A DNA stretch of 64,000 nt, taken from Arthrobacter gandavensis (lineage in GTDB: Bacteria; Actinomycetota; Actinomycetes; Actinomycetales; Micrococcaceae). Made by a program: the position numbers and the translations under genes. The notes below the pieces were generated by a model. That model searched no databases and was not told the origin of the DNA. It saw nothing but the letters and a program-made list of their open reading frames with translations. The stretch spans positions 806,001 to 870,000 of the forward strand of contig NZ_VTFU01000001.1 of NCBI RefSeq assembly GCF_009192735.1, written 5' to 3'. Below, in pieces: positions 2,606 to 25,442 of the stretch (the stretch's first letter is position 1; each line of letters starts with the position of its first letter).

Positions 2606-3568
2606 ATGGCTCGAATGGATATGCGCGTGTGGCTTCTTGGAAAGGTGATGGGGCCGTTCTCGGTGTCGCATAAGAGCGACGCGCAGGTCCTCGCGGACCA
2701 GCGCCGCACCATTAGTCACAACCCCGCGGTCGACTGGCTGCTGGGCGGCATCGCACCGGGGGTGGAGGTACAGAACGGAACGGCAGCCGGCGCTGAAGAC
2801 CGGATTCCCCTCCGGATCTACCGGCCCCGGGACACCGCGGGCACCCTTCCCCTGGTGGTGCTGATCCACGGCGGCGGATGGAGCCTGGGAACGCTGGATA
2901 TTTATGACGGCATCGCCAGCACCATCGCCCGGGATGCGGGCGCCGTCGTTGTTTCCCTGGCCTACCGGCTGGCGCCGACGCACCGCTGGCCGGCCGCAGC
3001 CGAAGACTGCTATGCGGCACTGCTGGACGTCACGCAGCGCGCCCATCAATGGGACGCCGACGCCGGCCGGCTCGCCGTGGTGGGTGACAGCGCCGGCGGG
3101 AATTTGGCCGCGGTGCTGACGCTGATGTCCCGGGACCGGTCCGGCCCGGCCATCACCTTCCAGGGATTGATCTATCCGGCCACCGACTTCACGATGAGCA
3201 GCCCCTCCATCGAGGAGAACGCCAAAGCGCCTTTGCTGACCAAGCGGGACATGCTTCGCTACCGGAGCCTCTACCTTCCGCAGGAGAAGGACTACAGGGA
3301 ACCGTATGCCTCTCCCCTGCTGGCCCCGGACCATACTGGACTGCCGCCGGCGCTGATCCAAGTGGCCGAGCATGATCCCCTGCGCGACGACGGGCTGCGG
3401 TACGCCGAGGCGCTGCGCGCGGCCGGGGTGCCGGTCCGCGTCACCACCTACGTGGGGATGCCGCATGGGTACCTCGCTTTCCCCCGGTTATGCCGCAGTG
3501 CTCCGCAGGCACTGGCTGAGCTGTCTGCGGAGCTGCGGCGGAACCTTGGGGCCGAGGCCGGCGCATAG
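2606..3568 (+). CDS. Alpha/beta hydrolase (HSL-type esterase)
   Basis: A 320-residue esterase/lipase of the hormone-sensitive-lipase group that hydrolyses carboxylic esters. The oxyanion-hole motif HGGGW lies at residues 88-92 and the nucleophile elbow GDSAGG places the catalytic serine at 162. AEHDPLRDD supplies the likely acid and PHGY the histidine. No signal peptide is evident, so it is probably cytoplasmic. The ATG start follows AAGGAAGG. It is downstream of and co-oriented with the DUF2891 gene. Substrate unknown. Confidence 0.93.
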   Translation: MARMDMRVWLLGKVMGPFSVSHKSDAQVLADQRRTISHNPAVDWLLGGIAPGVEVQNGTAAGAEDRIPLRIYRPRDTAGTLPLVVLIHGGGWSLGTLDIYDGIASTIARDAGAVVVSLAYRLAPTHRWPAAAEDCYAALLDVTQRAHQWDADAGRLAVVGDSAGGNLAAVLTLMSRDRSGPAITFQGLIYPATDFTMSSPSIEENAKAPLLTKRDMLRYRSLYLPQEKDYREPYASPLLAPDHTGLPPALIQVAEHDPLRDDGLRYAEALRAAGVPVRVTTYVGMPHGYLAFPRLCRSAPQALAELSAELRRNLGAEAGA

Positions 3569-3609
3569 TTTCCTCACACGGCCTAACCCTTGGGAAAGCG
3601 GACGAGAAA

Positions 3610-3658
3610 GTGTCAATCTGGCCTTGACGTGATCCTCTTGTCAAGTTCTAATTGACAC
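3610..3658 (+). promoter_or_regulatory. Leaderless promoter inside a tandem symmetric operator
   Basis: Two copies of a TGTCAA-N7-TTGACA palindrome lie 28 bases apart: 3611-3629 (right half TTGACG) and 3639-3657 (perfect). The right half of the first is also a consensus -35 box (TTGACG, 3624-3629). With a 17-base spacer the -10 box is TCTAAT (3647-3652), six bases before the ATG at 3659, so transcripts would be leaderless. The whole block is symmetric (outer GTGTCAAT/ATTGACAC, inner CTTGAC/GTCAAG). A repressor bound here would cover both promoter boxes. The HTH protein of the same operon is the obvious candidate. Confidence 0.8.
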
Positions 3659-3931
3659 ATGAATACACGACGCATTTTCTTTTGGTTGGCACTCGTCCTG
3701 CTGATTCTGGGAGTAACACTGGGCGGCCTCTTTGTCGTCCTGGAGTTGGATGGCTTCTTTGGGGGCATGTGCGCCGGCGCGGGCGTCATGTTCCTGGTCC
3801 TCGCGGCGTATGTCTTCGGCCGTTTCATCTGGTTTGAACGCGGGCGGGGCCAAGCGAGTGGCACCGAGTGGCTGCCGAGCCGGGACCGCAACGACTGGCT
3901 GCCCAGCCGTGATCAGGAGAACCGGTCATGA
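3659..3931 (+). CDS. Small two-TM membrane protein
   Basis: A 90-residue protein with two hydrophobic spans (about residues 5-30 and 38-58) and a charged tail containing a repeated WLPSRD motif (EWLPSRDRNDWLPSRD). Nothing identifies its function. The ATG lies directly after a strong promoter with no Shine-Dalgarno sequence, which suggests leaderless translation. Its stop overlaps the ATG of the downstream HTH gene (ATGA), so the two are translationally coupled. Confidence 0.8.
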   Translation: MNTRRIFFWLALVLLILGVTLGGLFVVLELDGFFGGMCAGAGVMFLVLAAYVFGRFIWFERGRGQASGTEWLPSRDRNDWLPSRDQENRS

Positions 3932-15107: not shown

Positions 15108-15878
15108 GTGCATACCGTTAGAGAATACGAAGCATCCGATGAGCGGGAATGGCTTCTATGCCGTCTTCTCAGCTTTTTCGACAGTGATTACTACGACGAC
15201 GTGAAGGTAGCCAAAACTCAGTTCTCCAACCCCAGCTTGTCCCTCGTCGCCGAAACTGACGGCAAGATCACCGGACTGATTGATGTGGAGATAAACGGCG
15301 GTGCCGCAACCATAGATTCGCTGGCGGTGCACCCCTCGGGCCAACGTCAGGGCATCGCTTCTTCTCTGCTGCGGCATGCCCTGGGACGACTGCCTGCTGA
15401 AGTGGAAACCCTGGATGCCTGGACCCGGGAAACCCCCAGCGCCAATCATTGGTACCAAGCGGCCGGCTTCCGCGAAAACTACCGGTACCTGCATGTTTAC
15501 GTGGGCGAGTACGACCCCAGGGATGACTTCATCACTCCCCCGGGATTGTCGTCACTGCAGGGTGGATTTCTGCACTCAGCCCTGGAGCACGAAGCAGCCA
15601 TGCGCAGTGCCTACAAACGGGTATACACGTGCCGCCAGTACCTGATGGACATCTGTCGCGGCTGTACTTGGCGCTCCCGCAGCAACGCTGCAGGCGTCGC
15701 AGTCTGGCTGGTTTCATCAAAGTTTTCCAATGCCGGGACCAGAGGCCCAAAGGGGTCGTTGCGCAGCAACGCCACCGCTTTCGGCGTCACCCTGGCCATG
15801 ATGTCGTTGCCGGCTTCGTTTGTCCGGCCTGTCCGGCGTTCGGTAAACCTGTTGATGGGTCCGAAGGTCTCCGCATAG
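15108..15878 (+). CDS. GNAT acetyltransferase with non-native C-terminus
   Basis: The GTG at 15108 starts a protein whose first 175 residues are a complete GNAT domain, with the acetyl-CoA loop VHPSGQRQGIASSLL and an antibiotic-acetyltransferase-like end (KRVYTCRQYL). From about residue 178 onward the reading frame crosses into DNA that is antisense to a truncated methylase gene. The last 80 residues are therefore probably not native. The catalytic domain may still fold. Acceptor substrate unknown. This marks the left edge of the accessory region. Confidence 0.75.
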   Translation: MHTVREYEASDEREWLLCRLLSFFDSDYYDDVKVAKTQFSNPSLSLVAETDGKITGLIDVEINGGAATIDSLAVHPSGQRQGIASSLLRHALGRLPAEVETLDAWTRETPSANHWYQAAGFRENYRYLHVYVGEYDPRDDFITPPGLSSLQGGFLHSALEHEAAMRSAYKRVYTCRQYLMDICRGCTWRSRSNAAGVAVWLVSSKFSNAGTRGPKGSLRSNATAFGVTLAMMSLPASFVRPVRRSVNLLMGPKVSA

Positions 15879-17767
15879 GAGCTGTATGCCTCGCGCAGTT
15901 TCCCCCGTTCCAGGCCCAGCTCGGTTGTGTCTTCGACGTTGCTCGCCTCGAGGGAGAGGACTGAACGCGCGAGGTCCCGCAGTTGCAGGAGTGAGCGAAG
16001 TTCGCGGGCCTGGGTCTTGGGCACGCTCATGGGTGCCATTGCACCGTCCAACCCGACCTGGCTGAACGAGCCGTCAGGTTCTGCGGCGATGTGCCCGACC
16101 TGAAGATCAGACCCTGCCGGCACAATGGCGGCCGCCTCGATAGTCTGTCCCTCCTGACGCTCCGCTGCTCCTCTCCCGATGCCAACGGCACTCTGCGCAA
16201 TGTCCTGCAGCTGGTCGTGCAAACGCGCGGGCACCGAGCTTAGATCCTCGTTGCGAACGGTGAGCGTGGCCGCACCGTACATGCCGTGGCCAACGACCGG
16301 CTCTCCGAGCACGCGCTCCGGGTTCTCCATGAAATAAGCGTTCATGCGGGCGGTGCTCAGCTCGGAGTCGTCAACGGCCATGGCCCGCGAGTCTAGCCAC
16401 TGCGGGTCCAGGGGTTCCTCGCCGGGAAGCCTGCGCCTGAAGATCAGAACATCGGTGAGGGCCTCGGTGCCGGCGGATCGGCGGTGAGCGCCGCTCGGCA
16501 GACGGACCGCGCCCAATAGATCAGCCGTCTCGTAGATTTCGCGCCGGGCGGCAGGGTTTTGGGCATCCAGTGTGAAGGCTGAGGAAATGACTCCAACTAC
16601 GCCTCCGGGCCGGGTGAGATCCAAGGATTTGATGATGAAGTGATTGTGCATTGGATGGTTGCCCGCGTTGTGGCGCGGGTCGTGCAAACTTGTCCTGGCG
16701 AACGGGACATTGCCCACAGTGGCATCAAAGTAGCCCGCGGGAAGGCGCGTCTTGGCGAAGGATTCAGCGCGGATTTCGGCCTCTGGGTAGAGCGCCTGGG
16801 AAATGCCGGCAGTGACGGGATCAAGCTCCACACCCGTCATGTGTACTTTCTCAGGCGCGAGGCCGATAAAGGTACCGGCTCCGGAGCCAGGCTCCAGCAC
16901 GCGGCCTCCGTCGAAGCCAAGTGCATTCAGTGTCTGCCAAATCTCCGTTGCAAGTGCGGGATCTGTGTAGTGCGCGTTAATGACGGTCCGGCTAGCTGCT
17001 CGGTACTCATCCTCGCTGAGCAGTTCCCGCAGCTCTGCCCGGTCCGCCTCGTACTCAATGCGACTCTCGTCGAACACCTCAGCAACGCCGGTTGCACCCC
17101 AACTTCCCCACCGGGCCAGAACCCTCCGTTCTGCATCCGTTGCTGCTCTGTCCTGTTCCTGCAGCTCCCGCAGGACACGTAAAGCCGCCACATTCGCACG
17201 GAACCGGGCCTGGGCCCCGGAGGGTGCCAGAGCATCCTGACTAGCGGGAATGAACCGAGAATCGGATGTCGCGGGAATTACGGGCGCTGGTTGTCCCGGT
17301 CCAGTTCCTCGGCCCTCAGATTCTCCAAGTCCTGCTGGTAACCGTGGTTGAAAGACTGAATTATCTCGTGCATCAGGACCGTCGACTGATCCATTCCCGC
17401 GTCCTCTTCGTTGTCCTCCATCTCCGTCACGTCCGGAGTCAGCATCTCGGCTCTGACTATTTCCTCGGCTTGCATCCTCGAAGCGTTCAGCCGGCCCACC
17501 TTCTCCAAATAGGTCTCGTTCTTCGGATCCGGGCCCGCTATTTCGTACTGCAGCTCCCCCACCTGACGCATTGCTTCCTCTCCCAGATCCCGGAACCACT
17601 CCTCCGGGTCCGGGATCAGGGCGTACTGCTTCGGTGCCGTCGTTTGCCACGTCTCCTGAGCGAACTTGCCGTACTTGTTCATCACGAACCTCCTCTGGTG
17701 CTGCGAAAAGAAATGCATCGAGACTTGCCTGACCATCAACCTGGTTGCGCTTGCGCCCTCGCGCCAT
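15611..17767 (-). pseudogene. Plasmid-type adenine methylase/helicase, C-terminally truncated
   Basis: About 718 codons remain of a very large plasmid or ICE protein normally carrying an N-terminal N6-adenine methylase and a C-terminal SNF2/DEAD helicase. Present are an N-terminal motif MARGRKRNQVDGQASLDAF, a long disordered linker, RFRANVAALRVLRELQ, the SAM motif VLEPGSGAGTF and the catalytic motif NVPF. The frame then ends abruptly near 15650, where it runs antisense into the GNAT gene. The helicase half is absent. The ATG at 17767 follows GGGGGA and overlaps the end of the recombinase gene. Confidence 0.78.
17278..17682 (-). CDS. 134-aa protein nested in another frame of the methylase gene
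   Basis: A strong ribosome site (AGAGGAGG) precedes the ATG at 17682. The product starts MNKYGKFAQETWQTTAP and is mostly helical and acidic, with no low-complexity character. Similar small proteins accompany methylase/helicase genes on actinobacterial plasmids, as far as I recall. It lies wholly inside the linker-coding part of the methylase gene in a different frame on the same strand. Its TAA stop (17278-17280) comes just before the methylase frame resumes conserved sequence. Function unknown. Confidence 0.72.
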   Translation of the reverse strand: MNKYGKFAQETWQTTAPKQYALIPDPEEWFRDLGEEAMRQVGELQYEIAGPDPKNETYLEKVGRLNASRMQAEEIVRAEMLTPDVTEMEDNEEDAGMDQSTVLMHEIIQSFNHGYQQDLENLRAEELDRDNQRP

Positions 17768-18425
17768 CGGACGTCCCCCTGATACCGGTAGAAACATTGG
17801 TCCCACCGTACCCAGCGCTTGCAAGGCCGTCTGTTCGCAGCGCCCGGATAATCGTTGAACGGCTCACTCTGAACTTCTTCGCGATCCATTCCAGAGAACG
17901 TTTTTCCTGCTCACGAAGTCGACGGGCTTCCACGACGTCATGGGGTTGCAACCGGGGCGGCCGGCCTCCCCTGCCTTCAGCTACAGCCAGGCCGGCTTTG
18001 GTCCGTTCCCGAATCAGTTCACGTTCCATCTCCGCCACTGAGGCGATGATGTTGAACATGAGTCGCCCTGTTGGAGTCGTGGTATCGATTCCTTCGGACA
18101 GGGACCGGAACATCACCCCTCGTTCCTGCAGCGTCTCCAACAGCTCGACCAGACCGCGGACAGTTCGGCCTAACCGGTCGAGTCTGGTTACTACCAGCGT
18201 GTTGCCTGGCTGTAGGGCCCGTAGACACGCTTCCAACTGGGGGCGGGTCATCGTGGCACCGGAACGGCCTAGGTCGGCATACACGTCATAACACCCCGCG
18301 TCGACCAGCTGCTGGCGCTGGCCTTCAAGGTTCTGATCAGTGGTCGATACGCGGGCGTATCCCAGCGACACTCCAGCTGGCGGTGGTGTGCTCACCGTCG
18401 CCTGCTGGTCTTTGGCGTGTTCCAT
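17736..18425 (-). CDS. Serine recombinase (resolvase/invertase family)
   Basis: A 229-residue small serine recombinase. GYARVSTTDQN places the nucleophile at S27. The catalytic arginine region RLDRLGRT, the helix-E segment AEMERELIRERTKAGL, and a C-terminal HTH (SLEWIAKKFRVSRSTIIRAL) are complete. A 45-residue disordered tail follows. The ATG at 18425 follows GGGAGGC. The stop overlaps the methylase start. It probably mobilised or resolved this element. The 49-base repeat at 18510 lies upstream. Confidence 0.92.
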   Translation of the reverse strand: MEHAKDQQATVSTPPPAGVSLGYARVSTTDQNLEGQRQQLVDAGCYDVYADLGRSGATMTRPQLEACLRALQPGNTLVVTRLDRLGRTVRGLVELLETLQERGVMFRSLSEGIDTTTPTGRLMFNIIASVAEMERELIRERTKAGLAVAEGRGGRPPRLQPHDVVEARRLREQEKRSLEWIAKKFRVSRSTIIRALRTDGLASAGYGGTNVSTGIRGTSDGARAQAQPG

Positions 18426-20578: not shown

Positions 20579-20788
20579 ATCCGTGCCCGCACCCGCGAAG
20601 GCATGCAAGTCGCCAAAGCAAAAGGCCGGCTGCGCGGCAAGCAACCCAAACTTTCCAAGTCCCAGGAAGCCCACCTGGTCTCCCTATATAAGGGAGGACA
20701 ACACACCACCACCGAGATCGCCGAACTCTTCAAGGTCGCCAGAAGTACGGTGTACCGCATCGTGGAGCGGACTCCCTCGGCCGCCTGA
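20579..20788 (+). pseudogene. Resolvase C-terminal fragment, copy 1
   Basis: This encodes only the tail of a Tn3-type resolvase: IRARTREGMQVAKAKGR, then the HTH segment TTTEIAELFKVARSTVYRIVE. The catalytic domain is gone. It duplicates 25113-25322 at roughly 90% identity. It abuts the truncated phosphotransferase on its left and a VKOR remnant on its right. Confidence 0.88.
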
Positions 20789-20905
20789 CCCATCAGTGGG
20801 CTGTGTCGTTGCCAGGGCAAGCAGCCCTCCGGAGTTCGATTCGAGTTAGAAGTTGGCGATGGTTCGGTCTCCGCCCTCACTCATCGGTACTCCACAGCAA
20901 AGAGA
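20579..20905 (+). repeat. 330-bp direct repeat, left copy
   Basis: The resolvase tail plus about 115 bases of following noncoding DNA recurs at 25113-25442 in the same orientation. The two copies bracket the cadmium operon, so recombination between them would delete or duplicate it. Confidence 0.85.
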
Positions 20906-25036: not shown

Positions 25037-25322
25037 CCATGACCCGTCAGATCCCGTCGGCCGGCTGCTCTTCAACGTCCTGGCCATGGTCGCCGAATTC
25101 GAATCTGACCTCATCCGTGCCCGTACCCGCGAAGGCATGCAAGTCGCCAAAGCAAAGGGCCGGCTGCGCGGCAAGCAGCCCAAACTTTCCAAGTCTCAGG
25201 AAGCCCATCTTGTATCCCTATATAACGGAGGACAACACACCACCGCCGAGATCGCAGAACTCTTCAAGGTCGCACGGAGCACGGTGTACCGCATCGTGGA
25301 GCGGACTCCTTCGGCCGCCTGA
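25037..25322 (+). pseudogene. Resolvase C-terminal fragment, copy 2 (longer)
   Basis: This retains the end of the catalytic domain (HDPSDPVGRLLFNVLAMVAEFESDLI) and the whole HTH tail (TTAEIAELFKVARSTVYRIVE). The catalytic serine region is absent, with no start codon in front. The part from 25113 on is the right-hand copy of the direct repeat that flanks the cadmium operon. Confidence 0.88.
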
Positions 25323-25442
25323 CCCATCAGTGGGCTGTGTCGTTGCTCGGGCATGCAGCCCTCCGAAGTTTTGATTCGAGTCAGCAGTTGGCAATGGTTC
25401 GGTCTCCGCCCTCCCTCACCGGCACTCCCACAACCAAAGAGA
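25113..25442 (+). repeat. 330-bp direct repeat, right copy
   Basis: Matches 20579-20905 in the same orientation, with scattered substitutions throughout. The similarity stops at the AAAGAGA sequence in both copies, after which the flanks differ. Confidence 0.85.

Follow-up and report, generated by a model that had tools for sequence, protein, structure and literature searches.

The window, the whole 64,000-nucleotide stretch of Arthrobacter gandavensis DNA analyzed here, carries on its minus strand a 718-codon open frame for a DarB-like DNA adenine methylase, running from an ATG at 17767 to 15611. Wholly within the 5' part of this ORF, on the same strand, lies a tnpV-like ORF of 134 aa (MNKYGKF...NQRP; 17682 to 17278, stop included), a gene recognized by its open frame, family conservation and an AF2 prediction. 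The initial annotation had described such a gene nested out of frame in a methylase gene, and our coordinates agree: the overlap is 405 nt and corresponds to methylase residues 29-163. The remaining same-strand frame over the overlap contains 10 stops. As had also been proposed, the nested gene has its own strong Shine-Dalgarno sequence ahead of its ATG (AGAGGAGG, 17696-17689, minus strand), with GAGGAGG conserved in close plasmid relatives. A Shine-Dalgarno-like AGGGGGA (17774-17780, minus strand) precedes the methylase ATG, and the stretch from that ATG to tnpV (17683-17767, minus strand) encodes a methylase-only N-terminal peptide, MARGRKRNQVDGQASLDAFLFAAPEEVR, with the motif GQ.S.D.FLF / GQLSLD.L. 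A small serine recombinase (resolvase) gene (17736-18425, minus strand) overlaps the methylase start by 32 nt at its 3' end, in a different frame. Elsewhere in the window, two direct copies of a 258-nt sequence (20579-20836 and 25113-25370) are 93% identical and 4.5 kb apart; the island between them encodes signal peptidase II, heavy-metal ATPase and cadmium-transporter-like proteins and resembles a composite mobile unit.

The large protein matches DarB-like antirestriction proteins (phrog_10089, E=2.4e-121) and belongs to a methylase/SNF2-helicase polyvalent family whose members carry both activities in one chain (1868 aa in locus L002). In the window, about 700 homologous residues are followed, after QVQPR, by a short tail (15611-15667, minus strand) that comparison with relatives shows to be non-homologous. 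We found the C-terminal SNF2 helicase half neither in this copy nor elsewhere in its genome. The earlier identification of the host gene as a methylase stands, with the correction that the window's own copy is truncated; it may be decaying. Motif I (EPGSGAG) is conserved in aligned relatives, and motif IV reads NVPF in all of them, where the EcoKI/TaqI-like criterion is NPP(Y/F). Alignment and structure prediction place a folded, ordered methylase core (RFIPASQD.LAPSGA...) at 15668-17254 on the minus strand, and methylase-frame residues 1-168 are predicted with a pLDDT of about 30. A methylase query from L105 returned only L105 itself from viral contigs.

Against the Pfam TnpV family (PF14198), the window's small protein scores 16.1 bits (E=0.011), below the gathering score of 27 bits, and we therefore call it "TnpV-like". 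PF14198 matches 9 of the 16 members of A1 at an E of 0.01 or better (best 2.4e-5). The family is present in 50 plasmid records and many genomes, many relatives are named TnpV by PGAP, and the protein is conserved across orders, with invariant or nearly invariant residues. AF2 predicts residues 1-80 to be helical with pLDDT above 90, and the remainder with lower confidence. We assign no fold, since Foldseek gave no match below E 0.001 and VIA-align none with a Z of 5 or more. An actinobacterial profile search of viral contigs and a search of phage records with the window protein each returned no tnpV. We infer that TnpV is an accessory of a mobile element, though its activity has not been established; the excision role of Tn4451 TnpV was merely postulated by others.

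The initial annotation contrasted an ordinary composition for TnpV with a disordered linker in the methylase frame, and this contrast is borne out: the overprinted segment (17278-17682, minus strand) is rich in Gly, Arg, Asp and Ser in the methylase frame and predicted to be disordered (pLDDT about 30). Since TnpV is predicted to be ordered and methylase residues 29-163 disordered, the models suggest an ordered protein overprinted on a disordered linker. Residue-level conservation of this linker may be just a by-product of tnpV.

We collected 58 distinct tnpV loci, 56 of them with a readable methylase body. In 53 of these 56, always in the same phase, the methylase frame runs open across the whole of tnpV to an upstream start. 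The three exceptions are frameshifted, two by indels inside tnpV (L007 and L058) and one further downstream (L050), where the methylase frame remains open over tnpV. Relatives with a methylase body thus keep both frames open, and the outcome that would have refuted the proposed nesting, stops in the linker frame of most homologues, did not occur.

This openness could still be deceptive if only tnpV were real, with the methylase/helicase starting downstream and the frame open merely because GC-rich codon usage makes stops rare. Long open frames are common at high GC, and an antisense frame over the window's tnpV is also without stops. A stop arises in the methylase frame when a tnpV codon ending in T is followed by one starting with AA, AG or GA. 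Counting all 58 loci rather than only the open ones, which removes conditioning bias, we found a stop-making third-position T in 3 of 1622 stop contexts, against 309 of 3320 elsewhere (Fisher 9e-51). The methylase body lacks this avoidance (367 of 2626 versus 1349 of 10801). All three stops fall in L028, the sole contributor among the 58; its tnpV (3260-3664) is intact, no methylase body was found in the 5.9 kb downstream, and its upstream peptide has decayed. L028 is a natural control, in which the methylase frame decays once the methylase is lost. When tnpV was redrawn with synonymous codons at methylase-body usage, about 0.1% of trials for the window, and 5% on average over 49 relatives, left the methylase frame open; the other sense frame is open in none of the 49. 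Because the relatives are not independent of one another, raw P values exaggerate the strength of the evidence. The stop-context test together with the codon redraw led us to reject high GC as a source of chance openness. Nesting is also present at 46% GC, in L100.

The position of the methylase start bears on the same question. In almost every plasmid relative PGAP annotates a helicase that begins after tnpV, as would be expected if tnpV alone occupied the shared DNA, but these starts are about 200 codons late and lie inside the conserved core (e.g. L002 at 7507). Upstream of tnpV we identified a conserved peptide, M.R.RK.Q..GQ.S.D.FLF.EPEEVR or MAGRKKQIDGQLSFEALW, whose start precedes the tnpV ATG by 76-91 nt in most loci and has a Shine-Dalgarno-like site. 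Computed without the tnpV ribosome-binding site, pN/pS over this peptide is 0.13 in the methylase frame versus 1.21 and 2.86 in the other two, which contain stops in 35 and 48 of the 53 loci; the methylase body has a pN/pS of 0.16. Judged from these substitution ratios, the methylase-only stretch is under purifying selection in the methylase frame. A methylase that starts only after 17278 in relatives, the second outcome named as a possible refutation, is not what we observe. The N-terminal motif (GQLSLD.L / QLALWDL-like) resembles sliding-clamp (beta-clamp)-binding peptides, a likeness in sequence only.

Internal start codons are likewise scarce. No methylase-frame start codon lies between the tnpV stop and the core in 48 of 53 loci, and in nine loci (L004, L012-L015, L041, L044, L045 and L047) there is no ATG, GTG or TTG in that frame from the tnpV start to the core, which makes the overlap obligatory in these nine. 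GTG codons within the tnpV of some loci are potential starts of a shorter methylase. Taken with the stop-context result, these observations leave the proposal that tnpV is the only gene here with scarcely any credibility.

The converse proposal, that only the methylase/helicase is real and tnpV is a spurious internal frame, finds support in four records (pTC1, pTC2, a Micromonospora and a Streptomyces plasmid) in which the large gene alone is annotated over tnpV. Against it stand the conservation of TnpV as a protein across orders, the intact tnpV of L028 in the absence of a methylase, solo TnpV-family copies in Bacillota elements, the confident fold prediction and the strong Shine-Dalgarno sequence. 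The position-wise pattern for tnpV residues 1-83 (0.105, 0.084, 0.192, compared with 0.082, 0.056, 0.317 for the methylase body) further indicates that the tnpV frame is constrained there, with its third position damped. We consider this proposal close to negligible. Standard annotation hides the overprint by dropping or trimming one frame, and the annotated relatives that we read keep a single frame over most of the shared DNA: PGAP trims the helicase, and the GenBank records of pTC1 and pTC2 omit tnpV.

A double constraint is also apparent in the divergence between relatives. In all 20 disjoint pairs compared, fourfold sites have diverged less within tnpV than across the methylase body (Wilcoxon 2e-6), even though TnpV protein identity in those pairs is the same as or below that of the methylase body. 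Together, the conservation of TnpV, the pN/pS of the upstream peptide and this reduced fourfold divergence show purifying selection on both frames as protein.

The two frames overlap throughout, and a programmed ribosomal frameshift joining them, with TnpV produced by a slip from the methylase frame or the methylase by a slip out of tnpV, is geometrically possible; we did not scan for slippery sites. However, each frame has an ATG of its own, preceded by a strong Shine-Dalgarno sequence for tnpV and by a Shine-Dalgarno-like site for the methylase, whose frame is open from that upstream start. No slip is therefore needed, and we think frameshifting very improbable.

We next consider how far the nesting extends. 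In an independent search anchored on the methylase core alone, and so not selected for tnpV, we read 54 cores and recognized tnpV in 43, nested in 42. Among cores at 60% identity or more, tnpV is nested in 38 of 39, and the 39th (L159) is frame-broken. Five of the 11 more distant cores without a recognized tnpV hold a weakly similar ORF of 116-264 codons that matches in phase and place. Nested ORFs of larger size (154-264 codons) occupy the same phase in the distant methylases of L155, L157, L158, L161 and L163; those of L155 lack similarity to TnpV and may represent further hidden genes or mere chance. Nested members also occur in Streptomyces, Micromonospora, Nocardioides, Pimelobacter, Rhodococcus and pTC1. 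The same-phase nesting recurs in three elements from Bacillota (L100, L105 and L115), with a chance of openness of 0.0002 or less. Solo TnpV genes from other Bacillota elements contain stops in the methylase-equivalent frame. A Bacillota TnpV query served as a lead only; our conclusions rest on the loci that it brought in. Because the nesting reaches Bacillota, the initial annotation understated the case.

Two further observations concern the sampled records. In L098 (1243-8243, a Streptomyces chartreusis plasmid), L091 and L092, giant UvrD-helicase polyvalent genes of 15-33 kb carry tnpV internally or at their 5' end. Two contigs titled Vibrio cholerae strain 35D (L021 and L023; WNZI01000021.1 and WNZI01000040.1) contain tnpV/methylase loci whose TnpV proteins are 78% and 68% identical to the window's, and the title is probably a misidentification.

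Our data support the view that the two fully nested same-strand genes form a genuine pair that mobile elements have maintained for a long time, a reading to which we give a probability of roughly 0.9. That both proteins are produced is inferred from the ORFs and ribosome-binding sites, in the absence of transcript, ribosome-profiling or mass-spectrometry data. The large gene would encode a DarB-like polyvalent protein in which either a short N-terminal peptide or an ArdC-N-like domain is followed by a disordered linker, then by an adenine methylase and finally by an SNF2 helicase. This protein would be expected to shield incoming plasmid DNA from restriction, a function known for DarB and inferred here by family. 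The linker-encoding DNA, read in the other frame from its own strong ribosome-binding site, would yield TnpV, a small protein predicted to be folded and helical. Most likely, a single mRNA would give rise to both proteins through independent initiation at two sites, the upstream ATG and the internal Shine-Dalgarno/ATG 76-91 nt downstream of it in most loci, although co-translation is an inference. Because the linker needs only openness, flexibility and polarity, it can be written in the shadow of a folded protein.

The origin of the arrangement is less clear. One tentative possibility, to which we assign well under even odds, is that the nested state is ancestral to this class of mobile-element anti-restriction proteins in Actinomycetota and Bacillota, that Tn4451-type solo tnpV genes are escapees, and that the shared DNA couples TnpV production to that of the large protein. 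If so, neither tnpV nor the large gene could easily be lost alone. Alternatively, and compatibly with a genuine nested pair, the overlap may be more recent and local, having arisen once in Actinomycetota with a separate origin in Bacillota. In Bacillota, an ArdC-N-like domain takes the place of the short peptide at the N terminus of the large proteins, and solo copies fall between nested ones in a tree of the two, as separate origins would allow. That tree is poorly supported and has long branches, and for this reason we did not use it to date the overlap. The same phase and place, in the linker before the methylase/helicase, recur in Micrococcales, Propionibacteriales, Micromonosporales, Streptomycetaceae, Rhodococcus and Bacillota, which speaks against separate origins, and we regard them as unlikely, though by no means excluded.

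Whatever its origin, the genuine nested pair is an old, conserved, fully nested overprint of a kind very rare for bacteria. The initial annotation had called overprinting of this length unusual, and a survey of 338 prokaryotic genomes agrees, having detected no real co-directional overlap that exceeded 60 bp and attributed longer cases to misannotation (PMC2478687). Here, full nesting of roughly 270-560 nt has been retained in Bacillota as well as in several actinobacterial orders, and L028 provides a clean natural control. The tnpV/methylase pair is a well-sampled model for dual-frame evolution, and it suggests that the disordered linkers of giant mobile-element proteins are places to search for hidden genes. 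We found no paper describing the overlap in the open-access literature; subscription journals and preprints were outside the scope of this search.

The large protein corresponds to the polyvalent DarB-like methylase-SNF2 dyad of conjugative elements (Iyer et al. 2017, PMC5512222), with which it shares an adenine methylase followed by an SNF2 helicase in one chain, an N-terminal ArdC-N-like domain in Bacillota and giant UvrD-containing versions in Streptomyces. That paper mentions neither TnpV nor overlapping genes, whereas here the linker carries a second gene, and the window's copy lacks the helicase half. With TnpV of Tn4451 (PF14198) the small protein shares a helical character and a similar C-terminal half (..GRLN..RMQAEEIV..); it differs in falling below the Pfam cut-off, and copies in Bacillota transposons can stand alone, the other frame then being interrupted by stops.

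The closest bacterial parallel in layout that we consider is Thermus rpmH within rnpA (PMC9841429), where a larger gene likewise encloses a complete second one that is read from the same strand in a different frame. In Thermus, a single initiation site serves both AUGs, which are only one nucleotide apart; here, 76-91 nt separate the two sites in most loci, and the pair occurs on mobile elements and in two phyla. The hepatitis B virus envelope gene (PMC9093120, PMC5604429) offers a likeness in kind, a folded protein overprinted on the spacer of a multidomain replication enzyme, the polymerase. That system is viral and without homology to ours, and the comparison is an analogy only of how such an arrangement may work.
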